Assembly: GCA_017433405.1 (NCBI GenBank)
Contig: JAFRHH010000052.1
Location: 1 to 37,492, forward strand
Source: Clostridia bacterium
GTDB taxonomy: Bacteria > Bacillota > Clostridia > Christensenellales > Aristaeellaceae
Length of the DNA stretch: 37,492 nt
Direction: 5' to 3'
Shown: positions 12,248 to 28,672 of the stretch, piece by piece
Layout: each line of letters opens with the position of its first letter
Position numbering within the stretch: position 1 is the first letter of the stretch
Notes under the pieces: model-generated
Databases searched by the model: none
The model's input: only the letters and a program-made list of their open reading frames with translations
Told to the model about the DNA's origin: nothing
Program-made: the position numbers and the translations under genes

Positions 12248-13030
12248 ATGCGGTATCATATCGATACGATTCCCATCTGGGACGCGGTAAAGCTGGACGG
12301 CGAATGCCCCCTGTGCGCCCTGGAGCGGCGGACGGAGCTCGGGGAGGCGGAGCGGTATCTCGGGGCTTCCGTCATGGAGCCGGATATCCGGATTAAGGTC
12401 AATGACCGGGGCTTCTGCCGGAAGCATCACGGGATGCTTTTTTCCATGAGCAACCGGCTGGGCCACGCCCTGATGCTGGAAAGCCATATGATGAAAAACC
12501 GGGAAAAGACCGAAAAGATCTTCGGAAAGATGAATCAGGCGGCGGATCAGCTGACGGCCGCCGGACTGGGGGACCGGCTGAGCGGGAAGACCCGGGCGGC
12601 GGCTTCCGCCGTCACGGAGCAGGCGAGGGCGCTTTCGGAGATGGCGGAGAGCTGCATCATGTGCGATACGATTCAGGAGAACATGCTGCGCTATCTGCAT
12701 ACCTTCTTTCACCTGTATAAGCAGGACGCGGAGTTCCGGACGCGGATCGGGAAGGGAAAGGGCTTTTGCCTGCCGCATCTGGGTCAGCTGATCGAGGTGG
12801 CGGCGGAGGAGTTCAGCGGCCGGGAGCTGGGAGAGTTTATCCGCGCGGTGACCCGGGTCGAGGCGGAGAACCTGGATCGGATTCAGGAGGACATCTCCTG
12901 GTTCATCAAGAAGTTTGACTATCGGGTGGAAGGGGAGTCCTGGACGAACAGCAAGGACGCGGTGGAGCGGACCGTGAACAAGACCCGGGGCTGGTGCGTC
13001 GGGAAAGAGCCCGTTCCGGAGGAATCATAA
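12248..13030 (+). CDS. DUF6062-type cysteine-rich protein
   Basis: 260 residues, mostly helical. Two similar halves each begin with a CxxC and follow with a Cys-x2-3-His: CPLC (residues ~21-24) with CRKHH, and CIMC (~136-139) with CLPHL. The spacing suggests two metal or redox sites of the same fold, produced by duplication. I identify it with DUF6062 from these motifs; function is unknown. GGAG stands 8 nt before the ATG. It leads the DRTGG/ATPase/hydrogenase-like gene string with a gap of about 50 bp, so it may be the first gene of that transcript. Confidence 0.7.
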   Translation: MRYHIDTIPIWDAVKLDGECPLCALERRTELGEAERYLGASVMEPDIRIKVNDRGFCRKHHGMLFSMSNRLGHALMLESHMMKNREKTEKIFGKMNQAADQLTAAGLGDRLSGKTRAAASAVTEQARALSEMAESCIMCDTIQENMLRYLHTFFHLYKQDAEFRTRIGKGKGFCLPHLGQLIEVAAEEFSGRELGEFIRAVTRVEAENLDRIQEDISWFIKKFDYRVEGESWTNSKDAVERTVNKTRGWCVGKEPVPEES

Positions 13031-13074
13031 AGGAGACGGAATGGCAGACGCGAATGATCATTCACAGAGGAGAG
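13030..13074 (+). repeat. Leader repeat, internally deleted copy (before DRTGG gene 1)
   Basis: It keeps the 5' piece AAAGGAGACGG and the 3' piece GCAGACG followed by the self-complementary GAATGATCATTC (13052-13063) and CACAGAGGAGAG, but lacks the ~50-nt central stem present in the copies at 17191 and 22871. The AGAGGAGAG is the ribosome site of the gene at 13083. Confidence 0.65.
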
Positions 13075-13082
13075 AAAAGAAG

Positions 13083-13445
13083 ATGACGATTCGGGAAGTA
13101 ATGGAAATCGTGGAGGGAAAGGTGCTGGTGGGAGAGGACCGGCTGGACGATCCGGTGGACACCGCCTGCGGGTCCGACCTGATGAGCGACGTGCTGGCCT
13201 TCGTTAAGGAGCGGACGGTGCTGATTACCGGGCTGATCAATCCCCACGTGCTCCGGACCTCGGAGATGCTGGATATTACCTGCATCGTGTTTTCCCGGGG
13301 AAAGCTGCCAAGCGAGGAGATGCTGGAGATGGCCGACGAGATCGGGATTACGGTAATCGCCAGCCCGATGACCACCTATACCGCCTGCGGGGAGCTGTAT
13401 ATCCACGGCCTTCCCGGAACCAAGAAGAAGCCGAAGGAGGTGTAA
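13083..13445 (+). CDS. DRTGG-domain protein 1
   Basis: 120 residues covering a single DRTGG domain (VEGKVLVGEDRLDDPVDTACGSDLMSDVL near the N-terminus, VIASPMTTYTACGELY near the end). DRTGG domains occur beside CBS domains and in phosphotransacetylase-like proteins and are thought to bind a ligand. Stand-alone copies are commonly found near [FeFe] hydrogenase genes in Clostridia. The start at 13083 is chosen because AGAGGAGAG (13066-13074) lies 8 nt upstream; the ATG at 13041 would translate the leader repeat itself. A GTG-start ATPase follows after 3 bp, so the two are co-translated. Confidence 0.8.
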   Translation: MTIREVMEIVEGKVLVGEDRLDDPVDTACGSDLMSDVLAFVKERTVLITGLINPHVLRTSEMLDITCIVFSRGKLPSEEMLEMADEIGITVIASPMTTYTACGELYIHGLPGTKKKPKEV

Positions 13446-13448
13446 GGC

Positions 13449-13874
13449 GTGGCTGTACTGCTCGAAAAGAGCTTCCCGGTAGAGGCCGGCGCCTACACCA
13501 CGGCGGGGGAAGCCTCGACGACGATCAAGCGGACGCTCAAGCAGCTGGGCATCAGCGCGGAGGTGCTTAGGCACGTGTCCGTCGCCTGCTACGAGGTGGA
13601 GCTGAATCTGGTCATTCACAGCCTTGGGGGGACGCTGACCCTGCTGGTGGATCCGGAAAAGGTGACCTTGATCTCCAAGGACATTGGGCCGGGCATTCCG
13701 GATATCGACAAGGCGATGACCGAGGGCTTCTCCACGGCGAACGAGGAGGCGCGGACGCTGGGCTTTGGCGCCGGCATGGGCCTGCCGAACATGAAGCGGA
13801 ACGCTACTGAGTTCGATATTCAGAGCGAGGTTGGGGTCGGGACGACCATTACCATGAGCTTTGCGTTGAAGTAG
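13449..13874 (+). CDS. Anti-sigma-factor-like ATP-binding protein (HATPase, RsbW/SpoIIAB type)
   Basis: 141 residues of GHKL ATPase fold with no histidine phosphoacceptor domain. The N-box region is VACYEVELNLVIHS, the G1-type loop is DIGPGIPDID and the G2-type loop GFGAGMGLPNMKRN. This is the anti-sigma/serine-kinase layout. It starts with GTG at 13449 after AAGGAGGTG. Its position between a DRTGG protein and an H-cluster protein suggests a switch relaying a redox or hydrogen signal to a partner protein, but no sigma factor or STAS anti-anti-sigma protein is encoded nearby. Role inferred. Confidence 0.82.
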   Translation: MAVLLEKSFPVEAGAYTTAGEASTTIKRTLKQLGISAEVLRHVSVACYEVELNLVIHSLGGTLTLLVDPEKVTLISKDIGPGIPDIDKAMTEGFSTANEEARTLGFGAGMGLPNMKRNATEFDIQSEVGVGTTITMSFALK

Positions 13875-13915
13875 GTGGGGGCGTTCCGCGGTCGCAGAGG
13901 AGGAAACAAGAGGAA

Positions 13916-15211
13916 ATGGACACGAAACGGTTTCATTCGGTCCGGCTGGAGGGGGACAAGTGCCGGGGCTGCACCAACTGCCTGAAGCGCTGTCCGACCG
14001 AGGCGATCCGGGTCCGGGGCGGCCGGGCGCACATCATCGATGAGCGCTGCATCGACTGCGGCGAGTGCATCCGGGTCTGCGGATACCACGCCAAGGTCGC
14101 GGTCACGGATCCCCTGAGCTCCATCAGCCGGTTCCGCTACAAGATCGCGCTGCCGGCCCCGAGCCTGTACGGTCAGTTCAAGGAGCTGCGGGGCATCAGC
14201 CAGGTGCTCAACGGCCTGAAGCAGATGGGGTTCGACGAGGCCTTTGAGGTCGCCCGGGGGGCGGACGTGGTCAGCCGGGCCATCCGGGAGCGGCTGAAGA
14301 ATCCGGACCTGCCGCGGCCTGTAATTTCCAGCGCCTGCCCGGCCATCGTCCGGCTGATTCAGGTTCGCTTTCCGGATCTGATCGATCATATCGTTGACGT
14401 GAGGCAGCCGATGGAAGTGGCTGCCATGATCGCGAAGCGGGAGTTCGCCCGGAAGCACGGGGTGGACGAAAAGGAGATCGGCTGCTTCTTTATTACCCCC
14501 TGCCCGGCGAAGGTCACGGCGGTCCGGAATCCCATCGGGCACGAGAAGAGCGCGGTCGACGGGGCCATCTCCGTGCTGGAAATCTACGGCCTTTTGAGCA
14601 GCCAGATCCGGAACGCGCCGGTGGATATCACCATCGAGACGGCCTCGGATCTCGGGGTCGGCTGGGCCCGGAGCGGCGGGGAATGCAAGGCGGTCAGCGT
14701 GGAGAACGCCATGGCAGTGGACGGGATCGAGAACTGCATCCGGGTGCTGGAGGAGATCGAGGATAACCGGCTGCGGGATCTCGAATTCTTCGAGGGAGCC
14801 GCCTGCACCGGCGGGTGCGTCGGCGGTCCGCTGAATTTCGAAAACAACTATGTGGCCCGCTCCAATGTGACCCGGCTGAGCAGCCGGACGCCGAACCCGG
14901 AGCTCAACGTGGACAGCGGGATGATGACCAAATACGAGCTGTATGACTCGAGCCGCATTCTGCCCAACAGCGCCATGAAGCTGGACGACGATCTGATCGA
15001 GGCGATGCGGAAGATGGAGCGGATCGAGGCGATCTACAAGGAGCTGCCGGGGTACGACTGCGGCAGCTGCGGCAGTCCGACCTGCCGGACCTTCGCGGAG
15101 GATATCGTGCAGGGGGCGGCCACCCAGATGGACTGCATCCATAAAATGAAGGAACAGCTGAAGATCATGGCGCAGCAGATGGTCAATCTGGCCCAGACCA
15201 CCCGGGAATAA
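13916..15211 (+). CDS. [FeFe]-hydrogenase-like H-cluster protein with C-terminal FeS domain (sensory type)
   Basis: 431 residues. Two [4Fe-4S] ferredoxin motifs (Cys16/19/22/26 and Cys45/48/51/55) precede a compact hydrogenase large-subunit domain. H-cluster loops are SSACPAI (Cys141), TPCPAK (Cys196) and ACTGGCVGG (Cys297, Cys301). A C-terminal four-cysteine FeS domain follows (Cys382, 385, 390, 407). All cysteines needed to hold an H-cluster remain, but the loops differ from catalytic enzymes, and an alanine stands where active enzymes carry an extra cysteine next to the first ligand. This resembles the putative sensory (HydS, group C/D) hydrogenases. It has no PAS domain, so output may pass through the neighbouring ATPase. 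GAGGAGG lies upstream of the ATG. Confidence 0.82.
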   Translation: MDTKRFHSVRLEGDKCRGCTNCLKRCPTEAIRVRGGRAHIIDERCIDCGECIRVCGYHAKVAVTDPLSSISRFRYKIALPAPSLYGQFKELRGISQVLNGLKQMGFDEAFEVARGADVVSRAIRERLKNPDLPRPVISSACPAIVRLIQVRFPDLIDHIVDVRQPMEVAAMIAKREFARKHGVDEKEIGCFFITPCPAKVTAVRNPIGHEKSAVDGAISVLEIYGLLSSQIRNAPVDITIETASDLGVGWARSGGECKAVSVENAMAVDGIENCIRVLEEIEDNRLRDLEFFEGAACTGGCVGGPLNFENNYVARSNVTRLSSRTPNPELNVDSGMMTKYELYDSSRILPNSAMKLDDDLIEAMRKMERIEAIYKELPGYDCGSCGSPTCRTFAEDIVQGAATQMDCIHKMKEQLKIMAQQMVNLAQTTRE

Positions 15212-15218
15212 GAAGACA

Positions 15219-15308
15219 GATTTTGTCCGCGAACGCGTCAGCGAAACGGATATAAAATCGTTATTCAGACAGAGCAACAGACTTGAAATGACGTTCACGG
15301 AGGAGAAG
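15219..15308 (+). repeat. Leader repeat (before DRTGG gene 2)
   Basis: A diverged full-length copy. GATTTTGT (15219-15226) can pair with ATAAAATC (15252-15259) including one G-U pair. A weaker TGAA/TTCA hairpin (around 15284-15297) leads into CACGGAGGAG, the ribosome site of the gene at 15320. Confidence 0.7.
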
Positions 15309-15319
15309 GAGAAGGAAAA

Positions 15320-15673
15320 ATGACGGTAGCGGAAATGGCAAAGCTGATCGACGGAACCAATCTGACCCCGGAGGCGCCGAAGGACCGGGAAGTATCCTGC
15401 GGCTATACCTGCGACCTTTTAAGCTGGGTCATGGCCCACGGGGCGGCGGGCATGGCCTGGGTCACGGTGCAGACCCATATGAACGTCATCGCGGTGGCGA
15501 GCCTGATGGAGATGGCGGCCGTCATCATTCCGGAGGGAATCGAGATGGAGGAGCCCAGTCTGCAGAAGGCGCGGGATGAGGAGATCAACGTGCTTTCAAC
15601 GAAGCTGACCGCCTACGAGATCTGCGCGCGGCTGGCGGCGGCGGGGCTGCCCGGAAAGGAGCGGGACGCGTAG
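15320..15673 (+). CDS. DRTGG-domain protein 2
   Basis: 117 residues, a second stand-alone DRTGG-like domain. It resembles the first copy in its SCGYTCDLLSWVMAH block (compare ACGSDLMSDVLAFV) and its C-terminal VLSTKLTAYEICARL helix. Likely a small ligand-binding regulatory protein paired with the PHP protein that starts 3 bp after its stop. GGAGGAG and GAAGGA precede the ATG and are part of the leader repeat and its margin. Ligand unknown. Confidence 0.75.
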   Translation: MTVAEMAKLIDGTNLTPEAPKDREVSCGYTCDLLSWVMAHGAAGMAWVTVQTHMNVIAVASLMEMAAVIIPEGIEMEEPSLQKARDEEINVLSTKLTAYEICARLAAAGLPGKERDA

Positions 15674-15675
15674 GC

Positions 15676-16365
15676 ATGTGGGCCGATCTGCACATGCATT
15701 CCTGTCTGTCCCCCTGCGCGGATGAGGACATGACGCCGGCCAATATCGCCGGTATGGCCCATATCAAGGGTCTGCAGGCCATCGCCCTGACGGATCACAA
15801 CACCGGAAGGAATCTGCCCTACATGAAGGAGGCCGCGGATTATTACGGCCTGATCTTCCTGCCGGGAATGGAGATCACCACCCGGGAGGAGGTTCACCTG
15901 CTGGGGTATTTCCGGGATGTTGAAACCGCGGTGGCGGTAGGGGAGATCTTTACGGAGCATCTTCCGAAGATGAAGAACCGGCCGGATTATTTCGGCACCC
16001 AGTATGTTATGAACACCGACGACGAGATTGTGGATGTCGAGGAACGGCTGCTGATCGGAGCGACGGATCTGGATCTGGCGGAGTGCACGGAGATCATCCG
16101 GAGCCACGGCGGCGCTGCGGTGCCGGCGCATATCAACCGGGGCCACGGGCTGCTGGTCAACCTGGGGCTGTTTCCGGAGGAGCCGGAGTTCCCCGTGGTC
16201 GAGGTGCGGCCGGAGCTGCCTGTGATGGAAAAGCTGATCACCGGAAAGCGCAGGCTCTGGTCTTCGGACGCCCATCATCTCGGGGATATTCTCGAGGCGG
16301 TCAGCGACGTGCCGACGGAGCGGTTTTCTCTGGGCGGGCTGTTTGAGTATGTAAGCGGAAGGTAA
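15676..16365 (+). CDS. PHP-domain phosphoesterase
   Basis: 229 residues with the PHP metal motifs in order: DLHMHSCLSPC (residue 4 on), TDHN, PGMEITT, EVHLLGYF, PAHI (His in the middle) and SSDAHH near the C-terminus. The family hydrolyses phosphoesters using two or three metal ions; the TrpH/YciV branch acts on 3',5'-nucleotides or RNA ends. Genes of this kind repeatedly accompany clostridial trimeric hydrogenases. Adjacent to DRTGG 2 with a 2-bp gap, so the two are translated together. Substrate unknown; degradation of a signalling nucleotide would suit the regulatory context. Confidence 0.85.
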   Translation: MWADLHMHSCLSPCADEDMTPANIAGMAHIKGLQAIALTDHNTGRNLPYMKEAADYYGLIFLPGMEITTREEVHLLGYFRDVETAVAVGEIFTEHLPKMKNRPDYFGTQYVMNTDDEIVDVEERLLIGATDLDLAECTEIIRSHGGAAVPAHINRGHGLLVNLGLFPEEPEFPVVEVRPELPVMEKLITGKRRLWSSDAHHLGDILEAVSDVPTERFSLGGLFEYVSGR

Positions 16366-16425
16366 AAGGGACGGAGGGGACAGAGCTGCAGCGAAGGCAG
16401 AGTTCTTCTGTCCTGGCGGACAGCG

Positions 16426-16483
16426 CAGACAGAGGGGACAGTTCTTCTGTCCTGGCGGACAGAAAGAACCGTCCCCCTGTCTG
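16426..16483. repeat. 58-bp GGGGAC palindrome, copy 1
   Basis: Two 27-nt arms around TGGC; arms begin CAGACAGAGGGGACAG and end CTGTCTG, with single-base bulges and one mismatch. A half copy (GTTCTTCTGTCCTGGCGGACAG) precedes it at about 16402-16423. It lies 61 bp after the PHP stop codon. Nearly identical copies are at 21828-21885 and 25028-25085. Confidence 0.85.
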
Positions 16484-16574
16484 AAAGCCCGGAGCGAAGG
16501 ACTGGAACGAAAGCCCGGAGCGAAGGAATGGAGCGAAGGACTGGAACGAAAGCCCGGAACGAAGGACTGAAAAA
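16484..16574. repeat. Seven 13-bp tandem repeats
   Basis: Seven consecutive units, alternating AAAGCCCGGAGCG-like and AAGGACTGGAACG-like, run from the end of the palindrome to an A-rich stretch before the hydrogenase promoter. The period is not a multiple of three and no reading frame uses it. The 16366-16706 spacer is otherwise filled by the palindrome, promoter and 5' hairpin. Confidence 0.85.
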
Positions 16575-16625
16575 GAAAAACAAAAAAGAAACAAAAGACT
16601 TTTCAGCTTTTCCAAAGTGTGATAT

Positions 16626-16660
16626 TATAATAAACTGTGGACAAGCGGGGAAACCCGCTT
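16626..16660 (+). promoter_or_regulatory. Hydrogenase operon -10 box and 5' mRNA hairpin
   Basis: TATAAT at 16626-16631 with no good -35 match. The predicted start is near 16638. A perfect hairpin follows at 16643-16660: AAGCGGG, GAAA tetraloop, CCCGCTT. It would lie within about 5 nt of the transcript's 5' end, the position of known mRNA-stabilising hairpins. Confidence 0.6.
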
Positions 16661-16706
16661 GAAAGTTCGGTTTTTGAATCCAATTGATAAGGAGGTCACT
16701 GATTCC

Positions 16707-17183
16707 ATGCCTGACAACAAGGAAAAGTACGCGAAGCTTCAGGCGGCCATTGAAAAGCACAAGGGGGAGCGGGGAGCTGTCATGCCCGTGCTTCAGGAAG
16801 CGATGACGATCTTCGGCTACGTCCCGCAGGACGTTCAGGAGATGATCGCGGACGGGCTGGGGGTTACCCTGTCCGAGGTGTACGGCGTTTCCACCTTCTA
16901 TTCCCAGTTTTCCCTCGAGCCCAAGGGCGAGCACATCATCGGCGTCTGCCTGGGAACGGCCTGCTACGTTAAGGGCAGCCAGAAGATCCTCGACAAGCTC
17001 AGCGAGGAGCTGAAGATCGAGCCCGGCCGGACGACGGCGGACGGTCTGTTCTCCCTGAACGCGACCCGGTGCCTCGGCGCCTGCGGCCTGGCGCCCGTCA
17101 TGATGATCGGGGAAGAGGTCTACGGTCGGCTGACGCCGGATCAGGTGCCCGGCATCCTGGACAAGTATCGCACCGCACAGTAA
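16707..17183 (+). CDS. hydC: NADH-dependent [FeFe] hydrogenase subunit HydC (NuoE-like 2Fe-2S protein)
   Basis: 158 residues, the usual NuoE length. Helical N-terminus, then a thioredoxin-like 2Fe-2S domain with ligands in VCLGTAC (~residues 82-87) and RCLGACG (~122-127). It passes electrons between NADH/flavin in HydB and the hydrogenase subunit. The ATG at 16707 is chosen because AAGGAGGT (16689-16696) is 10 nt upstream; a TTG further upstream lies in the 5' hairpin. First gene of the hydrogenase operon. Confidence 0.9.
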   Translation: MPDNKEKYAKLQAAIEKHKGERGAVMPVLQEAMTIFGYVPQDVQEMIADGLGVTLSEVYGVSTFYSQFSLEPKGEHIIGVCLGTACYVKGSQKILDKLSEELKIEPGRTTADGLFSLNATRCLGACGLAPVMMIGEEVYGRLTPDQVPGILDKYRTAQ

Positions 17184-17190
17184 GCATTTG

Positions 17191-17287
17191 AAGGAGACGG
17201 TTTTTGTTCGCGAATCGCGTTCGCGTGAGCGGCAACAAAATCGTCATCCGACGCAGCAAGGCAGACGTGAACTGCTGTTCACGGAGG
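17191..17287 (+). repeat. Leader repeat (before the hydrogenase-operon ATPase)
   Basis: Long stem: GACGG-TTTTTGTT (17196-17208) against AACAAAA-TCGTC (17234-17245). Second hairpin: CGTGAAC (17266-17272), loop TGCT, GTTCACG (17277-17283), running into GGAGGAAAGGG before the ATG at 17301. It lies inside the hydrogenase operon, between hydC and the ATPase gene. Confidence 0.8.
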
Positions 17288-17300
17288 AAAGGGAAGAGGC

Positions 17301-17858
17301 ATGCGAGATCTGAGCCTTCATCTGCTGGATCTGGCCCAGAACAGCATTACCGCCGGGGCGAAGCTGGTGACGATCCGGATCCGGCTCGAGGACGGCGGCA
17401 TGCTGACGATGGAGCTGGAGGACGACGGGAAGGGCATGAGCCCGGAGCTGCTGGAGCGGGTGACCAGCCCCTTCGCCACCACCCGGACGACCCGGAAGGT
17501 GGGCCTCGGGATTCCGATGATGAAGGAAAACGCGGAGAAGGCCGGGGGGAGCTTCCGCCTCGAAAGCGAGGAGGGGCGCGGCACCCGGCTGACCGCCAGC
17601 ATGGATACCCGGAACATCGACTGCCTTCCCTTGGGGGATCTGCAGGGAACCCTGCTGAGCCTGATGCTGACCAATCCGCTGCATCCGGACTTCCTGTTTG
17701 AGGGAAGGACCCCGAAGGGAGCATGCTCCTTTGATACCAGGGAGGTACGCAAGGCCCTGGGGAGCGACATCCCGTTTAACGAGCCTGCCGTGGCCGAATG
17801 GCTGCGGGAAGCGCTGGAAGAGGAAATGAACCCAATCTTTGGAGGTGTATTGTTATGA
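17301..17858 (+). CDS. Histidine-kinase-like ATP-binding protein in the hydrogenase operon
   Basis: 185 residues. Residues 1-~105 form a GHKL ATPase: N-box HLLDLAQNSITAGA, G1 DDGKGM, F-box SPFATTRTTRK, G2 GLGIPMM and a terminal GTRLTA strand. There is no dimerisation or phospho-histidine domain. The remaining ~75 residues form an unrecognised tail. Comparable ATPases are regularly found between NuoE- and NuoF-like genes of clostridial hydrogenases. Its stop overlaps the ATG of the ferredoxin gene (ATGA, 17855-17858). Probably regulatory; target unknown. Confidence 0.85.
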   Translation: MRDLSLHLLDLAQNSITAGAKLVTIRIRLEDGGMLTMELEDDGKGMSPELLERVTSPFATTRTTRKVGLGIPMMKENAEKAGGSFRLESEEGRGTRLTASMDTRNIDCLPLGDLQGTLLSLMLTNPLHPDFLFEGRTPKGACSFDTREVRKALGSDIPFNEPAVAEWLREALEEEMNPIFGGVLL

Positions 17859-18223
17859 AGTCTTTGGCTGACCTGGAAGCGATCCGCGCGCGGACGCTGG
17901 AAAACATCAACATGCGCAAGGATGAGGACGCCTGCCGCGTCGTCATCGGCATGGCTACCTGCGGCATCGCCGCCGGCGCCCGCCCCGTGATGCTCGCCTT
18001 TATGGAAGAGATCGCCAAGCGCAACCTGAAGCATGTGACCGTGAGCCAGACCGGCTGTATCGGCATGTGCCGCTACGAGCCCATGCTGGACGTCATCCTG
18101 CCGGGCCAGGAAAAGGTGACCTATATTCACGTGAAGCCTGAAATGGTGCCGCGGATCGTCTCCGAGCACATTGTAAACGGTCATCCGGTGGAGGAATACA
18201 CCATCGGCGCCGCGAAGGACTAA
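17855..18223 (+). CDS. 2Fe-2S thioredoxin-like ferredoxin
   Basis: 122 residues. Four cysteines suit a [2Fe-2S] thioredoxin-like ferredoxin: DACRV and MATCG in the first half, QTGCIGMC in the second. Start 17855 follows GGAGGTG; an upstream in-frame start at 17798 would overlap the ATPase by 60 bp and lacks a ribosome site. In related hydrogenases this module is the detached equivalent of the N-terminal 2Fe-2S domain of HydB. Codon choice shifts here to CGC, GGC and AAG, and stays so to the end of hydA. Confidence 0.85.
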   Translation: MKSLADLEAIRARTLENINMRKDEDACRVVIGMATCGIAAGARPVMLAFMEEIAKRNLKHVTVSQTGCIGMCRYEPMLDVILPGQEKVTYIHVKPEMVPRIVSEHIVNGHPVEEYTIGAAKD

Positions 18224-18250
18224 TCGACGACAAAGAGGAGGAATACCCAG

Positions 18251-20047: not shown

Positions 20048-20069
20048 TCGTGCGAGGAGGAACAACACA

Positions 20070-21818: not shown

Positions 21819-21827
21819 AAGAAAATG

Positions 21828-21885
21828 CAGACAGAGGGGACAGTTCTTCTGTCCTGGCGGACAGGAAGAACCGTCCCCCTGTCTG
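21828..21885. repeat. 58-bp GGGGAC palindrome, copy 2
   Basis: Same architecture and nearly the same sequence as 16426-16483: arms starting CAGACAGAGGGGACAG, TGGC loop, ending CCCCCTGTCTG. It begins 9 bp after the hydA stop codon, directly ahead of the terminator. Confidence 0.85.
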
Positions 21886-21892
21886 CGCGGGG

Positions 21893-21922
21893 AGCGCCTT
21901 CTTCGGAGGGCGCTTCTTTTTG
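21893..21922 (+). terminator. Terminator of the hydrogenase operon
   Basis: AGCGCCTTC (21893-21901), TTCG tetraloop, GAGGGCGCT (21906-21914), then TCTTTTTG: a textbook rho-independent terminator. Three 10-bp units of CAGGCTGnnn follow at 21958-21987, then a partly palindromic GGGGAACAGTCCC stretch at 22000-22021. Confidence 0.85.
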
Positions 21923-22030
21923 TTTGTCAGACGGGGTCCAAAATGATACAATCATTTCAGGCTGCTTCAGGCTGTTGCAGGCTGTGCAACGATTGAACCG
22001 GGGGAACAGTCCCTGTGTTCCGGGCAGAAA

Positions 22031-22060
22031 AGCAGACGTGGACAGACGTTCACGGAGGAG
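22031..22060 (+). repeat. Leader repeat, 3' part only (before the FRG gene)
   Basis: GCAGAC followed by hairpin GTGGAC (22038-22043), loop AGAC, GTTCAC (22048-22053), then GGAGGAG and the ATG at 22067. The G-U pair replaces an A-U pair of other copies, keeping the stem. Confidence 0.7.
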
Positions 22061-22066
22061 AAAGGC

Positions 22067-22867
22067 ATGATTCAGGAAGTTGTTATCCGCGATCTCGAGG
22101 GGCTTCTGCCGCTTCTGACGGAGCAGGAATACCGGCCGGATCTGAAGCGGAACCGATCCACCTATCTGTACCGGGGCATGCCGAATTCGGATTACCGGAT
22201 GGTGACCAGCCTGAGCCGCTGCTGTAAGCATCTTCAGGCTTCCCTGGAGCCGGCGATCCTCAGCAGCTTTGCCAAGTACGCCGTGCGGGAGGATCCAACG
22301 GTGACCCATTCCGTCTGGAACCGGATGATTACCGGCCAGCATAACGGCCTGCCGACCCGGCTGCTGGACTGGACCCATTCCAGCATGGTGGCGCTGCACT
22401 TTGCGACGACGGAGGAAAATCTGGCGGAGATGGACGCCCATGACTGTCTGGTCTGGCGGATCGATATGCAGGAGCTGATCGATCATCTTCCGGAAAAATA
22501 CCGACGGGCGGTGGAACGGGAGCAGACGACCCTCTTCAGCGTCGAGATGCTGCAGGGCATTACCGACAGCCTGGCGCAGTACGACCGGGACATGGACGGG
22601 AAGGCCATGGTGGTAATCGAGCCGCCGAGCACCAGCAACCGGATCGTGACCCAGTATTCCTTCTTTTCCATCATCCCCATGGGCATGGACAATATCGAGA
22701 AGTTTCTCGACGAGACCACGGAGCATACCGTGAAATATATTCTCGACCGGCAGCTGCGGTGGCGGGTTCGGGACATGCTGGATCAGCTGAACATGAGCGA
22801 GCGGCTGATCTATCCGGGGCTGGACGGGCTGAGCAAGTGGATCGCCCGGCATTATTATGTAAAGTAG
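22067..22867 (+). CDS. FRG-domain protein
   Basis: 266 residues. The FRG signature appears as YLYRGMPNSDYRMVTSL (residues ~34-50), followed by QHNGLPTRLLDWTHSSMVALHFA (~98-120), the most conserved block of the domain. The family name comes from the F/Y-R-G motif. Its biochemical role is not settled; some members sit in phage-defence contexts. The C-terminal ~120 residues are less conserved, ending in RWRVRDMLDQLNMSERLIYPGLDGL, which is typical of the family. Single gene behind the hydrogenase terminator, with a leader repeat supplying the ribosome site. Confidence 0.85.
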   Translation: MIQEVVIRDLEGLLPLLTEQEYRPDLKRNRSTYLYRGMPNSDYRMVTSLSRCCKHLQASLEPAILSSFAKYAVREDPTVTHSVWNRMITGQHNGLPTRLLDWTHSSMVALHFATTEENLAEMDAHDCLVWRIDMQELIDHLPEKYRRAVEREQTTLFSVEMLQGITDSLAQYDRDMDGKAMVVIEPPSTSNRIVTQYSFFSIIPMGMDNIEKFLDETTEHTVKYILDRQLRWRVRDMLDQLNMSERLIYPGLDGLSKWIARHYYVK

Positions 22868-22870
22868 CAC

Positions 22871-22970
22871 AGAGGAGACAGTTTTTGTCCGCGAACGCTC
22901 AAGCGAAGCGGCTGCTAAATCGTCATCCGGACAGAACGGCGGACGTGAAATGCCGTTCACAGAGGAGGGA
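22871..22970 (+). repeat. Leader repeat (before the CotH-kinase gene)
   Basis: Begins AGAGGAGACAG and GTTTTTGTCCGCGAACGC four bases after the FRG stop. CCGC and GCGG of the inner stem are kept; the outer stem is weaker. Near the end GTGAA (22945-22949) pairs with TTCAC (22956-22960), running into AGAGGAGGGA before the ATG at 22981. Confidence 0.75.
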
Positions 22971-22980
22971 AAGAAATCGC

Positions 22981-24960
22981 ATGAGAATAAAGCCTGTGGT
23001 TTTCACTGTGGCGCTGTTGCTGGTTCTCGGCCTTTGGGCGGCGGGCTCGGCGGAGATCCGGATCAGCGAGGTCATGGCCAGCAACGGATGGTACGAAAAC
23101 GGCCACGCCTGGGACTGGGTGGAGCTGCGCAACGACGGGAAGAAAACCGTGAACCTGAGCGGCTGGTTCTTCAGCGACAGCGAAAAGAATCCGCTGAAAT
23201 GGGCCTTTCCGGAGGGAACAAAGCTGAAGAAGGGCGCCTGTCTGACCGTCTTCTGTACGGGAGAGGAAATAAGCGACCCCGGGAAGGGGGACACCTTCTA
23301 TACGGATTTTGCCCTGTCCTCCAAGGGGGAGACGGTCGTCCTGTCGGACGCCCAGGGCAATGTCGTTCAGCGGCTGGAGATTCCGGAGCAGTACGGCTGC
23401 GTCAGCTGGGGAATTCCGAAGGGCGGGGAGGACTACGGCTATTTTGAGAACCCGACCCGGGGGGAGAAAAACGAGGAAAAGGTCTATCCGCGGCGGACGG
23501 CCGCGCCGTCGCTTCTGACCGCCGGCGGCTTCTATGCCGGCAGTGTGACGGTGGAGGCCCAGGGCGCGGAGGGGGCGGAGCTGCGCTATACCACCGACGG
23601 AGGCACCCCGACCCAGAAGAGCAAGGCCTTTCCCGGCGGCGGGCTGACGCTGAAGAAGACCACGGCCCTGCGGATCCGTGCCTTCGGGGAGGACGCGGTT
23701 TCCTCCGAAACCGTGAGCGCCACCTATTTTATCGACGACAATCCCGGAACCTCCGTCGTCAGCCTGATTACGGACGAGAAATATCTTTTCAACAAAAAGA
23801 CCGGGATCCTGGTCAAGGGGAGCGGCAGCATTCCCAATTACAGCAAGGGATGGGAATATCCGATCAACATTGAATACTTCAACCGGCAGGGGCAGGGGGA
23901 GATCAACCAGATGGGCACCTTCACCGCCTCGGGCCACAGCGCCCGGATCAACGCCCAGAAGAGCATCGCCCTCTACGCCCGGAAATCCTGGGGAAAGGAA
24001 CGGTTTGCCTTCAACCCATTCCCGACCCGCAATTATGACAGCTATAAGAGCCTTTTGCTCCGCTCCGCCAACAGCGATTACAGCGCGACCCGGCTGCGGG
24101 ATATCGTGGCATCCAGCCTGGCGGAAGGGCAGGGGATCCTGTATCAGGATCACGAGGTGATTCAGGTCTATATCAACGGCGCCTACTGGGGGCATTATAA
24201 CCTGCGGGAAAAGATCAACAAGCATTTCATCGCCCAGTACGAGGGGGTGACCGACGAGGATCAGATCGACGCCATCGACATCCTCGCCCGGACGGGGACG
24301 GACGAGTTTCTTCAGAACGGGGACAACAGCGACTGGCTGGCGCTGGCGGATTTCTGCAAAAAGAACGATCTGAACCAGCCGGAGAACCTGGCCTGGGTCG
24401 AGGGGCAGCTGGATATCGACAGCCTTTTTACCCACGCGGCCTTTGAAATCATCCTGGGTAACGTGGACTTTACCAACGTCCGGGTTTACCGGGTGCCCGG
24501 AGGAAAATGGCGGTACCTGCTCTTCGACGTCGAGGCCTGCTGGCGGGGACTGGACAGGACGCCGCTGGAATACTATATCAAGCCCGTCAGCGGAAAGATT
24601 CAGGGCTTTCGCCATGAGCCCCTCAACGCGCTGCTGGCGGTACCGGAATACAGGGCGAAGTTCCTGAACCGGGTCAGCGAGCTGCTGGCCACGGTCTTCC
24701 GGTGGGACCGGGTCGAGGCGGCCTTCGACCGGGTCATCGAGCAGCTGGAGCCGATTTTGCCCCGGCATATCAGGCGGTGGAAGAATATGAAGATGTCGAA
24801 CTGGAAGAAGAATATCGGGGCGACCAAGTATTATGCCCGGGTCCGGCCAAAGAAGATCCCGTCCCTGCTGAAGACAGCCATGAAGCTGTCGGACGCGGAG
24901 GTGGAAACCTATTTCGGAGAGACGATGGCCCTGCTGGAGGAGACGAATAAGGCGCCCTGA
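22981..24960 (+). CDS. Secreted CotH-kinase family protein with lamin-tail and chitobiase-like domains
   Basis: 659 residues. The start at 22981 gives a signal peptide (MRIKPVVFTVALLLVLGLW..., cut around AGSA-EI); an open frame extends upstream but reads through the leader repeat and lacks a ribosome site. Mature domains: LTD/lamin-tail-like (IRISEVMASNGW, WVELRNDG, LSGWFFSD; ~26-130); CHB_HEX C-terminal-like (YTTDGGTP; ~165-245); CotH kinase-like (~255-590) with GYWEYPINIEYF-like core, NLREKINKHFI, DVEACWRGLD. CotH proteins are atypical protein kinases of spore coat fame; in gut Clostridia this domain set occurs on surface proteins, often linked to polysaccharide degradation. Substrate unknown. 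Confidence 0.85.
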   Translation: MRIKPVVFTVALLLVLGLWAAGSAEIRISEVMASNGWYENGHAWDWVELRNDGKKTVNLSGWFFSDSEKNPLKWAFPEGTKLKKGACLTVFCTGEEISDPGKGDTFYTDFALSSKGETVVLSDAQGNVVQRLEIPEQYGCVSWGIPKGGEDYGYFENPTRGEKNEEKVYPRRTAAPSLLTAGGFYAGSVTVEAQGAEGAELRYTTDGGTPTQKSKAFPGGGLTLKKTTALRIRAFGEDAVSSETVSATYFIDDNPGTSVVSLITDEKYLFNKKTGILVKGSGSIPNYSKGWEYPINIEYFNRQGQGEINQMGTFTASGHSARINAQKSIALYARKSWGKERFAFNPFPTRNYDSYKSLLLRSANSDYSATRLRDIVASSLAEGQGILYQDHEVIQVYINGAYWGHYNLREKINKHFIAQYEGVTDEDQIDAIDILARTGTDEFLQNGDNSDWLALADFCKKNDLNQPENLAWVEGQLDIDSLFTHAAFEIILGNVDFTNVRVYRVPGGKWRYLLFDVEACWRGLDRTPLEYYIKPVSGKIQGFRHEPLNALLAVPEYRAKFLNRVSELLATVFRWDRVEAAFDRVIEQLEPILPRHIRRWKNMKMSNWKKNIGATKYYARVRPKKIPSLLKTAMKLSDAEVETYFGETMALLEETNKAP

Positions 24961-24998
24961 AGGGGTTCAGGGACAGAGATGAGAGCCAGGGACAGATG

Positions 24999-25107
24999 AG
25001 ACAGTTCTTCTGTCCTGACGGACAGCGCAGACAGATGGGACAGTTCTTCTGTCCTGGCGGACAGGAAGAACCGTCCCCCAGTCTGCGAGAACCGTGCCCC
25101 TGTCTGC
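24999..25107. repeat. 58-bp GGGGAC palindrome, copy 3, flanked by half copies
   Basis: Full copy at 25028-25085 (arms CAGACAGATGGGACAG ... CCCCCAGTCTG, TGGC loop). A 5' half copy (GACAGTTCTTCTGTCC) is at 24999-25026 and a 3' half copy (GAGAACCGTGCCCCTGTCTG) at 25087-25106. Its end abuts the leader repeat. Confidence 0.85.
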
Positions 25108-25108
25108 A

Positions 25109-25199
25109 GATTTTGTCCGCGAACGCGTCAGCAAAGCGGTTACAAAATCGTCATCCGGACTGAAAGGCAGACGTGAACTGCCGTTCACAGAGGAGGAGA
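25109..25199 (+). repeat. Leader repeat, best-structured copy (before the HAD gene)
   Basis: GATTTTGTCCGC (25109-25120) pairs with GCGG (25136-25139), TT bulge, ACAAAATC (25142-25149). Then TCGTCATCCGGAC, GGCAGAC, and the perfect hairpin GTGAAC (25173-25178), TGCC, GTTCAC (25183-25188), followed at once by AGAGGAGGAG and ATG 25207. Confidence 0.85.
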
Positions 25200-25206
25200 C
25201 AAGCTG

Positions 25207-25887
25207 ATGACGGATAAACGGAACGGACTGAAATTCCCCTGCCTGGTGCTGGATCATGACGATACCACGGTGAACTCTACCGCCACGATCCATTACCCCT
25301 GCTTTGTTGAATACATGGAGAAGTTCTTTCCGTCGGTCCATCTGACTCTGGAGGAATACTTCAACGCCAATTTTGATCCGGGGGTCGTGGCGCTGTTTAC
25401 CGAGATCTGCGGGATGACCGAGGAACAGATGATGGACGAGGAGCACTACTGGGCCGCCTATTGCCGGACTCACAGCGCAAAGGCCTATCCGGGGATCCGG
25501 GAAATTCTCGAGGAGCAGCGGCGGCGGGGCGGGCGGTTCTGCGTCGTCAGCCACAGCTTTACGGAAAACATCTTGCGGGATTATCGGGAGAACGGCCTGC
25601 CGGAGCCGGATATGGTCTTCGGCTGGGAATATCCGCCGGAGCAGCGGAAGCCTTCCCCCTGGCCGCTTCAGAAGATCATGGCTCAATACGGCTATGAGCC
25701 GGAGGAGCTGCTGGTGGTGGACGACCTGAAGCCGGGCTATGATATGGCCAGGGCGGCTGGCGTTCCCTTTGCCGCGGCCGGATGGGCCAACGATATTGAG
25801 AAGATTGAAAGCTACATGAGGAAGCACTGCGACCGGTATTACAAGACGGTTCAGGCGCTTTGGAAGGACCTGTTTGAACAGACATAA
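25207..25887 (+). CDS. HAD-family hydrolase (phosphatase-like)
   Basis: 226 residues. Motif I DHDDT (residues ~17-21; the second Asp of the DxDDT type is kept), helical cap, motif II VVSHS, motif III Lys in EQRKPSPWP, motif IV VVDDLKPGYDMA. This is the beta-phosphoglucomutase/phosphoglycolate phosphatase-like subfamily I layout. The substrate cannot be named from sequence. The ribosome site GGAGGAG is the end of the leader repeat. It is the last rightward gene before convergent repeats. Confidence 0.85.
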   Translation: MTDKRNGLKFPCLVLDHDDTTVNSTATIHYPCFVEYMEKFFPSVHLTLEEYFNANFDPGVVALFTEICGMTEEQMMDEEHYWAAYCRTHSAKAYPGIREILEEQRRRGGRFCVVSHSFTENILRDYRENGLPEPDMVFGWEYPPEQRKPSPWPLQKIMAQYGYEPEELLVVDDLKPGYDMARAAGVPFAAAGWANDIEKIESYMRKHCDRYYKTVQALWKDLFEQT

Positions 25888-26129
25888 ACCAGTTCGCGTT
25901 ATACTGGTTCACGTTAGCATTTGCCGAAGGCAAAGCTCTATGTAAACATAAATACTTTGGACAACCACGGACTGTTCCCGTGGGCTCCAGGCGTTCATGT
26001 GTCCCCCGATTCTACAGAATTCCTGAGATTTCTATGGAAGTTCTTGAGACTTCGTTGAATACGGAAACATTATCTTATGCTGCTGAAGGTCGTAACAGGT
26101 ATGATTTTAACTACCGCTTACTTATGATT

Positions 26130-26271
26130 CACACAAAAGGACCGTCCCCGTGTGTTTTTCCCGTGTGTTTTTTCTTGTGACATGATAATGGTTAGGAAAA
26201 CACAAAAGGACCGTCCCCGTGTGTTCCCCCGTGTGTTCCCCGTGTGTTCCCGTGTGCTCCCCCGTGTGTTT
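26130..26271. repeat. Two ACACAAAAGGACCGTCCCC repeats and a GTGTGTT tandem tract
   Basis: Copies at 26130-26158 and 26197-26225 form hairpins (ACACA/TGTGT outside, GGAC/GTCC inside). The first is followed by TTTT rightward, the second by TTTTCC leftward, so they may terminate the converging HAD and transglutaminase transcripts. A degenerate ~11-bp tandem tract of CCCCGTGTGTT units runs from 26221 to 26271. The rest of 25888-26129 has only small hairpins (25887-25909, 25920-25934). Confidence 0.7.
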
Positions 26272-26273
26272 CC

Positions 26274-28583
26274 TTAGTGCAGGGGGCTGCGGCGGGAATT
26301 CGGCAGGAAGATCCGGCGGAGCAGGCAGCGGACCCGGGCGGGAGCGGAGAGCTCCCGGCGGATGGCTGTGGCGGCGGCCCGGATCAGCTCCGTGTCGGAG
26401 GCCAGGGGCAGGACAGCGGCGTAGCGGATCAGGGACAGGCATTCCCCACAGGGCAGCAGGGGGACGGAGAACCGGGGCGTCCGGTCCACCCGGCGGGCAA
26501 AGGCCATGGGGGTTTCCCCGGCTTCCCGGGTCAGCCCCTCCGCCCGGAGGGATTCCGCCAGATCCTGCACCCAGATTTCAAAGCGGACGGATTCCGAAGC
26601 GGCTCTCCGGGCCCGAACCTTTGGATCGGTCAGGCGAAGCCGAAGCGCCAGGGCAGATACCAGGAGCGCCAGGAGACCCAGGATCCACCAGAGCGGGGAA
26701 GGGCCCGGATGCTCCGCCGGGGCGGCGGGGCTGTCCGGCGTATCGGGCGTCGGCGGCGGGGTCGGAGAGGCCGGGGGCTGATCTTCCGGGGGCTCCGGGG
26801 TCGGCGTGTCTTCCGGCGGCGGATTATCAAAGGGATCCTCGGAGGGGACCTCCGACGGGCTTTCCGTGGGTTCCTCCGAGGGCTCCGGGGAGGGGCTTTC
26901 GGAGGGCACGGGGGTCGGGGTCGGCGTCGGGGCCGACGCGGGAGGCGGCGTCCGGGAATCCGAAGCGCTGTGGTGGGGAGTGGCGTCAAAGGTCAGCCAT
27001 CCGAAACCGCTGAAATAGACTTCGGTCCAGGCATGGCCGGAACGGCCGGTTACCAGAGCCCGCCCATCTGTGTCCGGCTCCGCCAGATAGCCCTCCACAT
27101 AGCGGGCCGGCAGCCCAACCATCCGGCAGAGCACCGTCATGGCGGAGGCAAAATACGTGCAGTAGCCCTCCCTGGTTTCCAGGAGGAAGCGGGTGACGAA
27201 ATCCTGGTTTTCCGGCTGATCCTCCACCTCCAGGGTATAGCGGAAGCTTCGGGCGAGCCAGTTCTGAATCGCCAGGGCCTTTTCATAGGGGGTCAGCCCG
27301 GCGGCGGAAGCCTCCGCGGCCAGGGTATAGACGGGCTGCTCCAGATGGGCGGGCAGCTGGGTATAGGTATTCAGGATCCGCTCGTAGCCGACGTCGTTGA
27401 AGGCCGCGGAGGCGTCCACGATCCGGGCGAGGCCGGGATCGCCGCCGACGAAGAGGGGGGCCTCCACGCTCCAGGTGGCGCCCGCCTCCAGATTCCGGGT
27501 TACGAACACCTCGGAAGCGTTCGAAAAATACGGCACCAGATCCCCGCCGGGCTCCAGAAGCCTGATCCGCTGGGGAACGAACAGGGTCGACGCGCTGTCG
27601 GAGAGCATACGGACCGAGACCGTCAGCGGATCGCAGACGGATCCCCGGGCTGTTTCGGGGGGAAGGGCCTCGTTAAAGATCGCGGCACGGTTCTCCCGCT
27701 GAGAGAGCGCCTGCCAGAGGTAGCGTCGGCCGCCGGTGGTATTGACCCAGGCGCGGCCGTTGTATTCATTATAGATGACGCCCCGGAGATAGACCGTGCG
27801 GGGGGCGGAGACCTGCATCACCGGCCGGTCGGAAAGCTCCGGCTTCCCGCCGAGCTGATGCGGCCCCTGGGGATAATAGCCCTCGGCCGAGAGGGAGAAG
27901 ACATCCCGGGCTTCCGTAAAGAAGAGCCGGTCCATGACGGCCTGGCGGAGATCATCCGCCTTTTCCCGAAGGGGCGCGAGATCCGCCGCGTTTCGGGGCA
28001 CCAGCAGCCAGGCCAGGGCCACCGGCAGGAGAACCCAGGGGAGCAGTCGGAGGGGATTCAGCCCCTCATAGCGGTCCAGAATCAGCCGCAGCAGCACCGC
28101 AGAGAAGGCGGGAAGCAGCCAGGGCAAAAGATCCATCCGATTCGAAAGCCAGGCCAGCAGGGTGACGATGACCGTCAGACACAGGGCGGGGAGCCAGGTG
28201 GCCTTTTCCGCCATCGACAGGCAGGCCAGCAGCGGGATCAGCACCGCCATGACCCGGACGGCTGTGTCCGCGATCAGGGGAAGGGCGGCCTGCTGACCGG
28301 ACAGGCGCAGGGACAGGGCGATCATCAGATCCTGCGCCTGAAGCCGCCCGCCGGCGCCAAAGAGCCAGAAGAGCACCGCGGCCGCGCCAAGGCCCAGGAA
28401 GATCAACGCGATTCGCCGGTTCAGGGTGGCCAGCTCAAAAACGAGGACCACCAGGGCGGCGGAGAGCAGGTGGACCGGATCGGCAAAGGAAGGATCCAGC
28501 AGCCCCAGCACGGGCATCAGAAGGCCCGCGGAGAGCAGCAGGGACGGAAGGGCATGGCCGAGCTTTCTGCGAAGCAGCTTCAT
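26274..28583 (-). CDS. Membrane transglutaminase-like protein with Pro-rich linker and DUF4129-like tail
   Basis: 769 residues from the ATG at 28583, preceded by AAGGAGGGG. About six N-terminal membrane helices (residues ~15-200), an extracytoplasmic region, then a transglutaminase core: catalytic Cys ~475 in GYCTYFASAM, His in SGHAWTEVYF, Asp in TFDATP. A long Pro/Ser/Thr/Glu linker (PTPTPVPSESPSPEP type) follows, then one membrane helix (LWWILGLLALLVSALALRL) and a ~110-residue DUF4129-like cytoplasmic tail. Such proteins are partners of MoxR ATPases and DUF58 proteins and are thought to act on or cleave cell-surface proteins. Third gene of that leftward operon. Confidence 0.88.
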   Translation of the reverse strand: MKLLRRKLGHALPSLLLSAGLLMPVLGLLDPSFADPVHLLSAALVVLVFELATLNRRIALIFLGLGAAAVLFWLFGAGGRLQAQDLMIALSLRLSGQQAALPLIADTAVRVMAVLIPLLACLSMAEKATWLPALCLTVIVTLLAWLSNRMDLLPWLLPAFSAVLLRLILDRYEGLNPLRLLPWVLLPVALAWLLVPRNAADLAPLREKADDLRQAVMDRLFFTEARDVFSLSAEGYYPQGPHQLGGKPELSDRPVMQVSAPRTVYLRGVIYNEYNGRAWVNTTGGRRYLWQALSQRENRAAIFNEALPPETARGSVCDPLTVSVRMLSDSASTLFVPQRIRLLEPGGDLVPYFSNASEVFVTRNLEAGATWSVEAPLFVGGDPGLARIVDASAAFNDVGYERILNTYTQLPAHLEQPVYTLAAEASAAGLTPYEKALAIQNWLARSFRYTLEVEDQPENQDFVTRFLLETREGYCTYFASAMTVLCRMVGLPARYVEGYLAEPDTDGRALVTGRSGHAWTEVYFSGFGWLTFDATPHHSASDSRTPPPASAPTPTPTPVPSESPSPEPSEEPTESPSEVPSEDPFDNPPPEDTPTPEPPEDQPPASPTPPPTPDTPDSPAAPAEHPGPSPLWWILGLLALLVSALALRLRLTDPKVRARRAASESVRFEIWVQDLAESLRAEGLTREAGETPMAFARRVDRTPRFSVPLLPCGECLSLIRYAAVLPLASDTELIRAAATAIRRELSAPARVRCLLRRIFLPNSRRSPLH

Positions 28584-28614
28584 CCGTCTTTCCCCTCCTT
28601 TCCGTGTTTTCCGC

Positions 28615-28632
28615 CGTGAACACCCGTTCACG
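28615..28632 (-). promoter_or_regulatory. Leader-type hairpin upstream of the transglutaminase gene
   Basis: On the minus strand CGTGAAC, loop GGGT, GTTCACG, followed by GCGGAAAACACGG and then the AAGGAGGGG ribosome site. Same stem sequence as the rightward leader repeats, in gene orientation, but without their long 5' stem. Confidence 0.6.
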
Positions 28633-28672
28633 CCTTTCCATTGATCCGGGAACCTTTGGTAAATCCTGCCGA

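Follow-up and report, generated by a model that had tools for sequence, protein, structure and literature searches.

The 37,492-nucleotide stretch of a Clostridia bacterium genome analyzed here (contig JAFRHH010000052.1, positions 1 to 37,492; the window) contains four full copies, one 5'-truncated copy, and one short copy of a repeated element of ~97 nucleotides (nt). The window and the genome were searched with R1, a profile model built from 33 genome copies, and a repeat search of the window also recovered copies of the element. All six good copies lie in gene orientation, with an ATG 6 to 14 nt after the end of the copy, which bears out the claim of a preliminary description of this DNA that six copies run with the genes and end at start codons.

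The four full copies, all on the forward strand, gave R1 scores of 87 to 105 bits. The first (15211..15307; 95.5 bits) has GAGGAG at 15300-15305 and is followed by an ATG at 15320; its left flank is the altered GAAGA-C, and its internal GTTATTC matches the changed flank. The second (17192..17291; 87.1 bits) lies between a NuoE-like gene and an HATPase gene, with a left GGAGA at 17193-17197, GAGGAA at 17284-17289, and the ATG at 17301. Upstream of a CotH gene (CotH Pfam match), the third (22873..22969; 104.5 bits) has its left GGAGA at 22874-22878, GAGGAG at 22962-22967, and the ATG at 22981. The fourth (25101..25197; 104.1 bits) precedes an HAD gene (HAD_2 Pfam match) and is without the left GGAGA, being joined there to a repeat that resembles a repetitive extragenic palindrome (REP); its GAGGAG lies at 25190-25195 and the ATG at 25207.

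The remaining two copies, likewise on the forward strand, are incomplete. At 13031..13073, GGAGAC is joined to GGAATGGCAGAC and followed by the 3' hairpin and AGAGGAGA, ahead of the ATG (13083) of a gene with a DRTGG Pfam match (R1 match at 13020-13074, 23.7 bits, E value of 0.0008; local match, 82%). This locus had been listed as an ordinary copy; it is a member of the family, but as a short form that lacks the 5' stem. The 5'-truncated copy at 22019..22061 consists of the spacer, the 3' hairpin, and GAGGAGA (local match, 84%), is the conserved part of a longer R1 match (21972-22062, 39 bits), and precedes the ATG (22067) of an FRG-domain gene. A match on the reverse strand at 28607..28664 (16.4 bits, E value of 0.033) was too weak to be counted. 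It covers a hairpin, GTGAACGGGTGTTCAC, ahead of a leftward gene and has no attached Shine-Dalgarno (SD) sequence; since the SD of that gene lies 16 nt beyond the hairpin and not directly behind it, the proposal that the hairpin at 28615-28632 belongs to the same family was not established.

From left to right, the element comprises (A)GGAGA-C-AG and a compound stem made up of GATTTTGT-CCGC...GCGG-ACAAAATC and, further inside, CGC/GCG, then GTCATCCG, in most copies a spacer CAGAATGGCAGAC, a hairpin of the type GTGAAC-N4-GTTCAC, and AGAGGAG, after which comes the start codon. A segment GTC-A-TCCG sits between the compound stem and the second hairpin, and RNAalifold proposed a pairing of the left GGAGAC with its GTC-A-TCC. 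To the fold described earlier, this adds the left GGAGAC; the preliminary description had overlooked that the left boundary is itself an SD-like GGAGA.

The genome, a draft with a completeness of 89%, comprises 92 contigs and 2,533,817 bases. R1 gave at least 150 matches in it (149 with E values of ≤2.2e-5 and one of 0.076) and BLAST gave 51, and the family is therefore not a product of chance. In the 388,824 bases surrounding the R1 matches, 191 local matches to a 96-base consensus were observed, comprising 134 full ones, 43 without the 5' part, 10 without the 3' part, and 4 without both, cases at segment ends being included in these classes.

The two ends of the element behaved differently. 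Among 132 copies, the left flank at positions -5 to -1 was dominated by G (100), G (114), A (119), G (129), and A (126), with A in 63 copies at -6 and no consensus further out. The right AGAGGAG was even, each base being present in 82 to 93 of 95 solo copies, and the next base was A in 45 and G in 36. Although the left 5-mer departed from GGAGA in 39 of the 95 solo copies, the right end did not follow, agreement between the left and right 5-mers being 3.69 of 5 compared to 3.71 after shuffling. No target-site duplication was seen when it was looked for in the left and right ends of the solo copies. The right GAGGAG is thus the element's own, and the left GGAGA is target-like. Tandem copies were also present: 22 of 121 copies lie behind the right end of another copy, with one GGAGA in common and a period of ~90 nt.

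Incomplete copies were mostly 5'-truncated (35, plus 7 short forms, versus 9 that were 3'-truncated), with breakpoints scattered from position 16 to 68. Non-tandem truncated copies showed no clear enrichment at SDs (15 of 28, versus 74 of 126 full copies), and all seven short forms (13031-13073, L058, L104, L119, L125, L152, and L185) stand at starts of open reading frames (ORFs). In the short forms, either the spacer or the 3' hairpin directly follows a GGAGACAG-like end; they are possibly a mobile minimal version or the result of deletion between two GACAG repeats. In some apparent chimeras, the left end of the element is replaced by a REP-like repeat (L164, at C5:10911 and C5:9617; L168, at C48:5502; and 25101-25110 in the window).

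The position of the copies relative to genes was first assessed without a gene caller. An ORF of at least 60 codons began 3 to 18 nt past the terminal GGAG in 86 of the 150 listed copies, versus 282 of 1,500 random positions, and 72 ATGs were found at offsets of 5 to 13 nt in 146 anchored copies, versus 15 in the antisense control. With a gene caller, 20 of the 150 listed copies overlapped predicted genes and 4 had no right-hand gene in view. The outcome that the preliminary description had named as contrary to its proposal (copies antisense to genes or away from starts and no covariation in the stems) was not the one obtained: 117 of the 126 copies outside predicted genes were sense to the right-hand gene, and the stems covary (see below). 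Away from SDs the sense bias was milder (70:9 for elements versus 88:30 for GGAGA sites; P = 0.018). As for location at an SD versus elsewhere between genes, the ratio was 52:86 for elements and 14:131 for GGAGA sites outside elements (odds ratio, 5.7; P = 2e-8).

Two-sided changes in the stems, which the preliminary description had suggested looking for, were present both within the genome and in a mixed alignment. In 134 own copies, 20 of 27 pairs showed such changes (shuffled mean, 8.7), with 53 cells (shuffled, 14.9) and a score of 0.106 (shuffled, 0.082; slid versions, 0.008 to 0.046), although the alignment had been fitted to a model and one slid version gave as many as 46 cells. In a set of 14 own copies, 6 from G026, and 1 from G009, 9 of 27 pairs changed on both sides, with 15 cells versus 3.7 and a score of 0.131 versus 0.086 (0.094 in one slid version). 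For the pairing of the left target GGAGAC with GTC-A-TCC, referred to below as the guide, each of the six pairs changed on both sides in only 0 or 1 of 134 rows; complementarity, the joint change in copy 15211, and the GGAGC facing GC-A-TCC in a second family (see below) support this pairing. When six leaders were folded, GGAGAC lay fully opposite GUC-A-UCC in three, partly in one, and not in one, while in the sixth (copy 25101, without the left GGAGA) the guide segment folded opposite the terminal SD. The z-scores of these folds ranged from -0.1 to -3.1, two of them below -2.

Sites occupied here were free of the element in relatives. For copy 17192, 24 of 29 relative loci aligned on both sides, with 0 to 38 nt separating points whose distance here is 131 nt; the junction in one relative is TAAGCGAGAGGAGAGGGATCAGCGTG, and the own junction minus the copy would read TAAGCATTTGAAGGAGA joined to AGGGAAGAGGCATG. 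For copy 15211, 6 of 29 relative loci were comparable, with spacers of other sequence that in some were no shorter than our own. For four copies on contig C86, 19, 15, 5, and 5 of 58 relative loci were comparable and their junctions were element-free (at most 12 loci per copy being shown). A search of all 58 loci with R2 gave three weak matches (E values of 0.01 to 0.94), none of them at these junctions.

R1 matched 3 of 61 genomes, the own genome included. R2 matched 5 of 28 chosen genomes of the genus (18 copies in G026, 9 in G067, and 1 each in G009, G061, and G018), and in 26 of these 30 non-own copies, including 9 of 9 in G067, an ORF began 2 to 18 nt past the SD. Among 391 genomes of the class, with stricter filters, only the own genome and G290, from another family, matched. 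When the G290 copy was used as a DNA query, 12 of 31 genomes of its genus (g56) matched at an E value of ≤0.01, some of them partially, with 24 matches in G473, 7 in G466, 5 in G474, and 4 in G465. Most of 26 g56 copies show GGAGC, a compound stem, GC-A-TCCG or GT-A-TCCG, GTCAGA, an AT-rich hairpin, AGAGGAG, and a start codon; thus, the anatomy is alike while the stem sequence largely differs. In 20 of the 26 copies, 10 of 25 pairs changed on both sides (shuffled, 7.4; reached by 55 of 500), with 43 cells versus 14.7 and a score of 0.268 versus 0.116 (slid, 0.036 to 0.084), and an ORF followed immediately in 19 of 22 copies examined. Judging from these sequences, the element has amplified separately in several species. 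A phage search with one copy as the query gave no match, nor did IMG/VR with one exact pattern.

The genes behind the copies had been described as sharing no function, and their Pfam matches agree. Ten downstream genes in g56 matched MFS_2, ArgJ, FBPase_2, dCMP deaminase, FliE, NAD synthase, PALP, tRNA pseudouridine synthase, AIRS, and ABC transporter domains, and the nine in G067 include aspartate/ornithine carbamoyltransferase, a RecD2-type helicase, PmbA/TldD, and one without a match. When downstream proteins (86 own, 26 from other members of the genus, and 19 from g56) were compared all against all, only ABC ATPases, one pair with 24% identity, and one locus with 99% identity (G000/G009) were common across species. 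At this last locus, the copy is the same in L142 (G000 C54:10424) and L062 (G009 C45:39358) and the proteins downstream are 99% identical, in species that are otherwise far more diverged, which probably reflects a recent transfer of the locus.

The element is probably a non-autonomous interspersed repeat, similar to a miniature inverted-repeat transposable element, that inserts 3' of GGAGA, often the SD of a gene, in sense orientation, bringing a new SD with it. Like such elements, it is present in many dispersed, similar copies of ~97 nt without coding capacity, at sites that are element-free in relatives (the junction bases being deduced). Because of those junctions, and because other carriers have it at other genes, it is to be regarded as an interspersed repeat and not as a conserved regulator. 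The idea of a mobile element acting as a ready-made 5' untranslated region, one of two options in the preliminary description, is thus well supported, by species-specific amplification and the element-free junctions and further by the unrelated downstream genes and the tandem and truncated copies.

Insertion would take place 3' of GGAGA, very often a gene's SD, in sense orientation, and the right end AGAGGAG would then give the gene an SD at ordinary spacing together with a structured leader of ~90 nt. With a GGAGA on the left, the element's own GAGGAG on the right, and no duplication, one SD is seemingly exchanged for another at similar spacing. The displaced left GGAGAC could be sequestered by pairing with the internal GTC-A-TCC, an anti-SD segment that may aid the choice of target or hide the old SD, and the carried SD would presumably be functional in translation. 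Since translation initiation should be almost undisturbed by insertion, copies would be tolerated ahead of ordinary chromosomal genes; each right end would also be a new GGAGA target, hence the head-to-tail arrays with one common GGAGA.

Several points weigh against this interpretation. Of the 150 listed copies, 64 have no such ORF directly behind, some of them owing to missed starts or tandem neighbors, and the SD enrichment may reflect survival rather than targeting. The gene caller, based on a codon model, was homemade and made errors, as at copy 17192, which is sense to the HATPase gene but, owing to a spurious ORF, was scored as antisense. Covariation between target and guide within the own genome is weak, their pairs seldom changing on both sides. 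Two full copies of the window (22873 and 25101) had no comparable relative locus, and identity to the relatives is ~80 to 85% for genes in the window and less for C86, too low for the empty sites to be read base by base, so that the exact junction bases are deduced. Finally, as no polymorphic insertion between strains was found, and no mobilizing enzyme or autonomous partner either (one candidate locus was inspected and Y1_Tnp and Y2_Tnp were searched for, but not other transposases or reverse transcriptases), active movement is something that we infer. The candidate locus for a long autonomous version, C56:7151 (L189, a copy with a detached 5' part), was rejected, the opposite-strand ORF behind it resembling, by eye, a glycoside hydrolase.

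The mobile repeat could, more tentatively, belong to a widespread, as yet undescribed superfamily in the Clostridia that homes to SDs by means of an internal anti-SD guide, possibly via mRNA, and rebuilds the SD so that the gene stays translated. The ribosome-binding site would then be the safe harbor of a mobile element. Mobile DNA in the start region of a gene is usually damaging, and an element that lands in the SD and supplies another would explain how such a repeat spreads before ordinary genes, biosynthetic ones included; a mobile element would then have written the leaders of many genes in these Clostridia. How an SD comes to be picked as a target, and whether the leaders later serve as regulators, become testable questions.

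Of the ways in which the repeat might move, a possible but doubtful one is a single-stranded DNA route catalyzed by an HUH enzyme like those of IS200/IS605, with end hairpins, a target on the left only, and an internal guide (site logic as given in section 3 of PMC6006769). In agreement with this, insertion takes place 3' of a fixed, short target and leaves no visible duplication, there are two end hairpins, the right end is target-like, and GGAGAC pairs with GTC-A-TCC, as does GAAGAC with GTTATTC in copy 15211. However, the guide lies 3' of the hairpin and not, as in IS608, as a tetranucleotide 5' of the hairpin foot, and the only Y1_Tnp gene of the genome is of the type of the REP-associated tyrosine transposases (RAYTs). 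In some other genomes, enzyme and element are found apart: G067 (77% complete) has nine copies and G474 (83% complete) five matches, both without Y1_Tnp, whereas G064 has eight Y1_Tnp matches and no element. In g56, Y1_Tnp is present in 14 of 14 near-complete genomes, carriers or not, including the carriers G473, G466, and G465, which leaves room for IS200/IS605 help in that genus. A search for IS91-type Y2_Tnp gave no match, but since the control genomes were likewise without one, this negative carries no weight.

Movement of the repeat via RNA, the leader transcript being copied into DNA at a nicked SD and primed by GGAGA microhomology, seems unlikely. The excess of 5'-truncated copies with spread breakpoints hints at such an intermediate, and the lack of clear enrichment of truncated copies at SDs and the sense orientation at expressed genes fit it. 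Nevertheless, truncation could also come from recombination or decay, with selection keeping the SD part, the short forms could have arisen by the GACAG deletion mentioned above, and full copies retain the left GGAGAC, which is not expected in simple target-primed copying unless the RNA starts there. As general background, SD-directed cutting of RNA exists in phage T4, whose RegB cleaves GGAG in SDs.

The other option of the preliminary description, a shared cis-regulatory RNA, is improbable. The element would then be the leader of a regulon, riboswitch-like or protein-binding, in which the GTC-A-TCC anti-SD pairs with the left GGAGAC or the terminal GGAGGA. Compensatory stem changes, the sense position of copies in leaders, the alternative partners of the guide in the folded leaders, and a core that looks invariant across families would agree with this. 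On the other hand, the downstream genes are without a common function, tandem, short, and truncated copies occur, copy number varies from 0 to 150 among 56 of the 61 relative genomes plus carriers, and the z-scores of four of the six leader folds lie above -2. Because downstream genes are hardly common to the carrier species, this option is unsupported as the main explanation; the leaders could still have been put to use as regulators later.

That the genome's RAYT mobilizes the element as a REP-type repeat is the least probable of these explanations and was rejected, since, although an element copy lies ~150 nt upstream of the single RAYT-like gene and on its strand (58.5 bits for the gene with NCBIfam REP_Tyr_transpos, against a cutoff of 80), the flanks of 10 of 10 RAYT homologues shown (43 to 58% identity) carry other, GGGGACGG-type repeats, no credible R1 match was found in 80 RAYT loci (R1 may miss other subfamilies), and the number of copies is not tied to that of Y1_Tnp.

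Other repeats were observed in the window. A second, unrelated family (GGGACAGTTCTTCTGTCC ... AGAACCGTCCCCCTGTCTG; 16367-16483, 21829-21886, and 24969-25107) resembles the GGGGACGG repeats beside the RAYT homologues. A tandem repeat of GGAGCGAAGGACTGGAACGAAAGCCC with a 13-bp step (16491-16568) lies behind a REP-like repeat, and a run of GTCCCCGTGTGTTCCCC-type repeats (26131-26273) is located between the HAD gene and the leftward gene.

Among known systems, REPs and REPINs with RAYTs are, like the element, short, folded, lineage specific, mostly intergenic, and non-autonomous, with many copies. The element differs from them in its ~97 nt, its two unlike hairpins in place of a single GTAG- or CGTC-tagged palindrome (CGTC being found only within ATCGTCATCC behind the first stem), its GGAGA target, its SD as the right end, its sense orientation to genes, and its head-to-tail arrays. 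With IS200/IS605 and their non-autonomous derivatives, known as PATE-like elements, it has in common the left-only target, the absence of duplication, the end hairpins, and a possible guide-target pairing, and it is set apart by the position of the guide, a target that is an SD motif, and the lack of a demonstrated matching transposase gene. Structured leader RNAs in Rfam are also folded, covarying 5' leaders by an SD; no conserved gene context was found for the element, and Rfam returned no family in the window and only four unrelated, subthreshold matches at four element loci, in accordance with the earlier remark that no named RNA family fits.

The pneumococcal BOX, RUP, and SPRITE repeats are small interspersed repeats in leaders or between genes that are thought to be parasitic; the element differs in that it appears to rebuild SDs, and the sequences are unrelated as far as described (PMC3049150). 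In the sections of PMC3733652, PMC6006769, and PMC3049150 that deal with kindred repeats, none is described as rebuilding ribosome-binding sites, and among the titles and beginnings of abstracts listed by a literature search of open-license full text, none described an SD-rebuilding repeat. In kind, the element resembles these small non-autonomous repeats, while the logic of its insertion site appears to be new.

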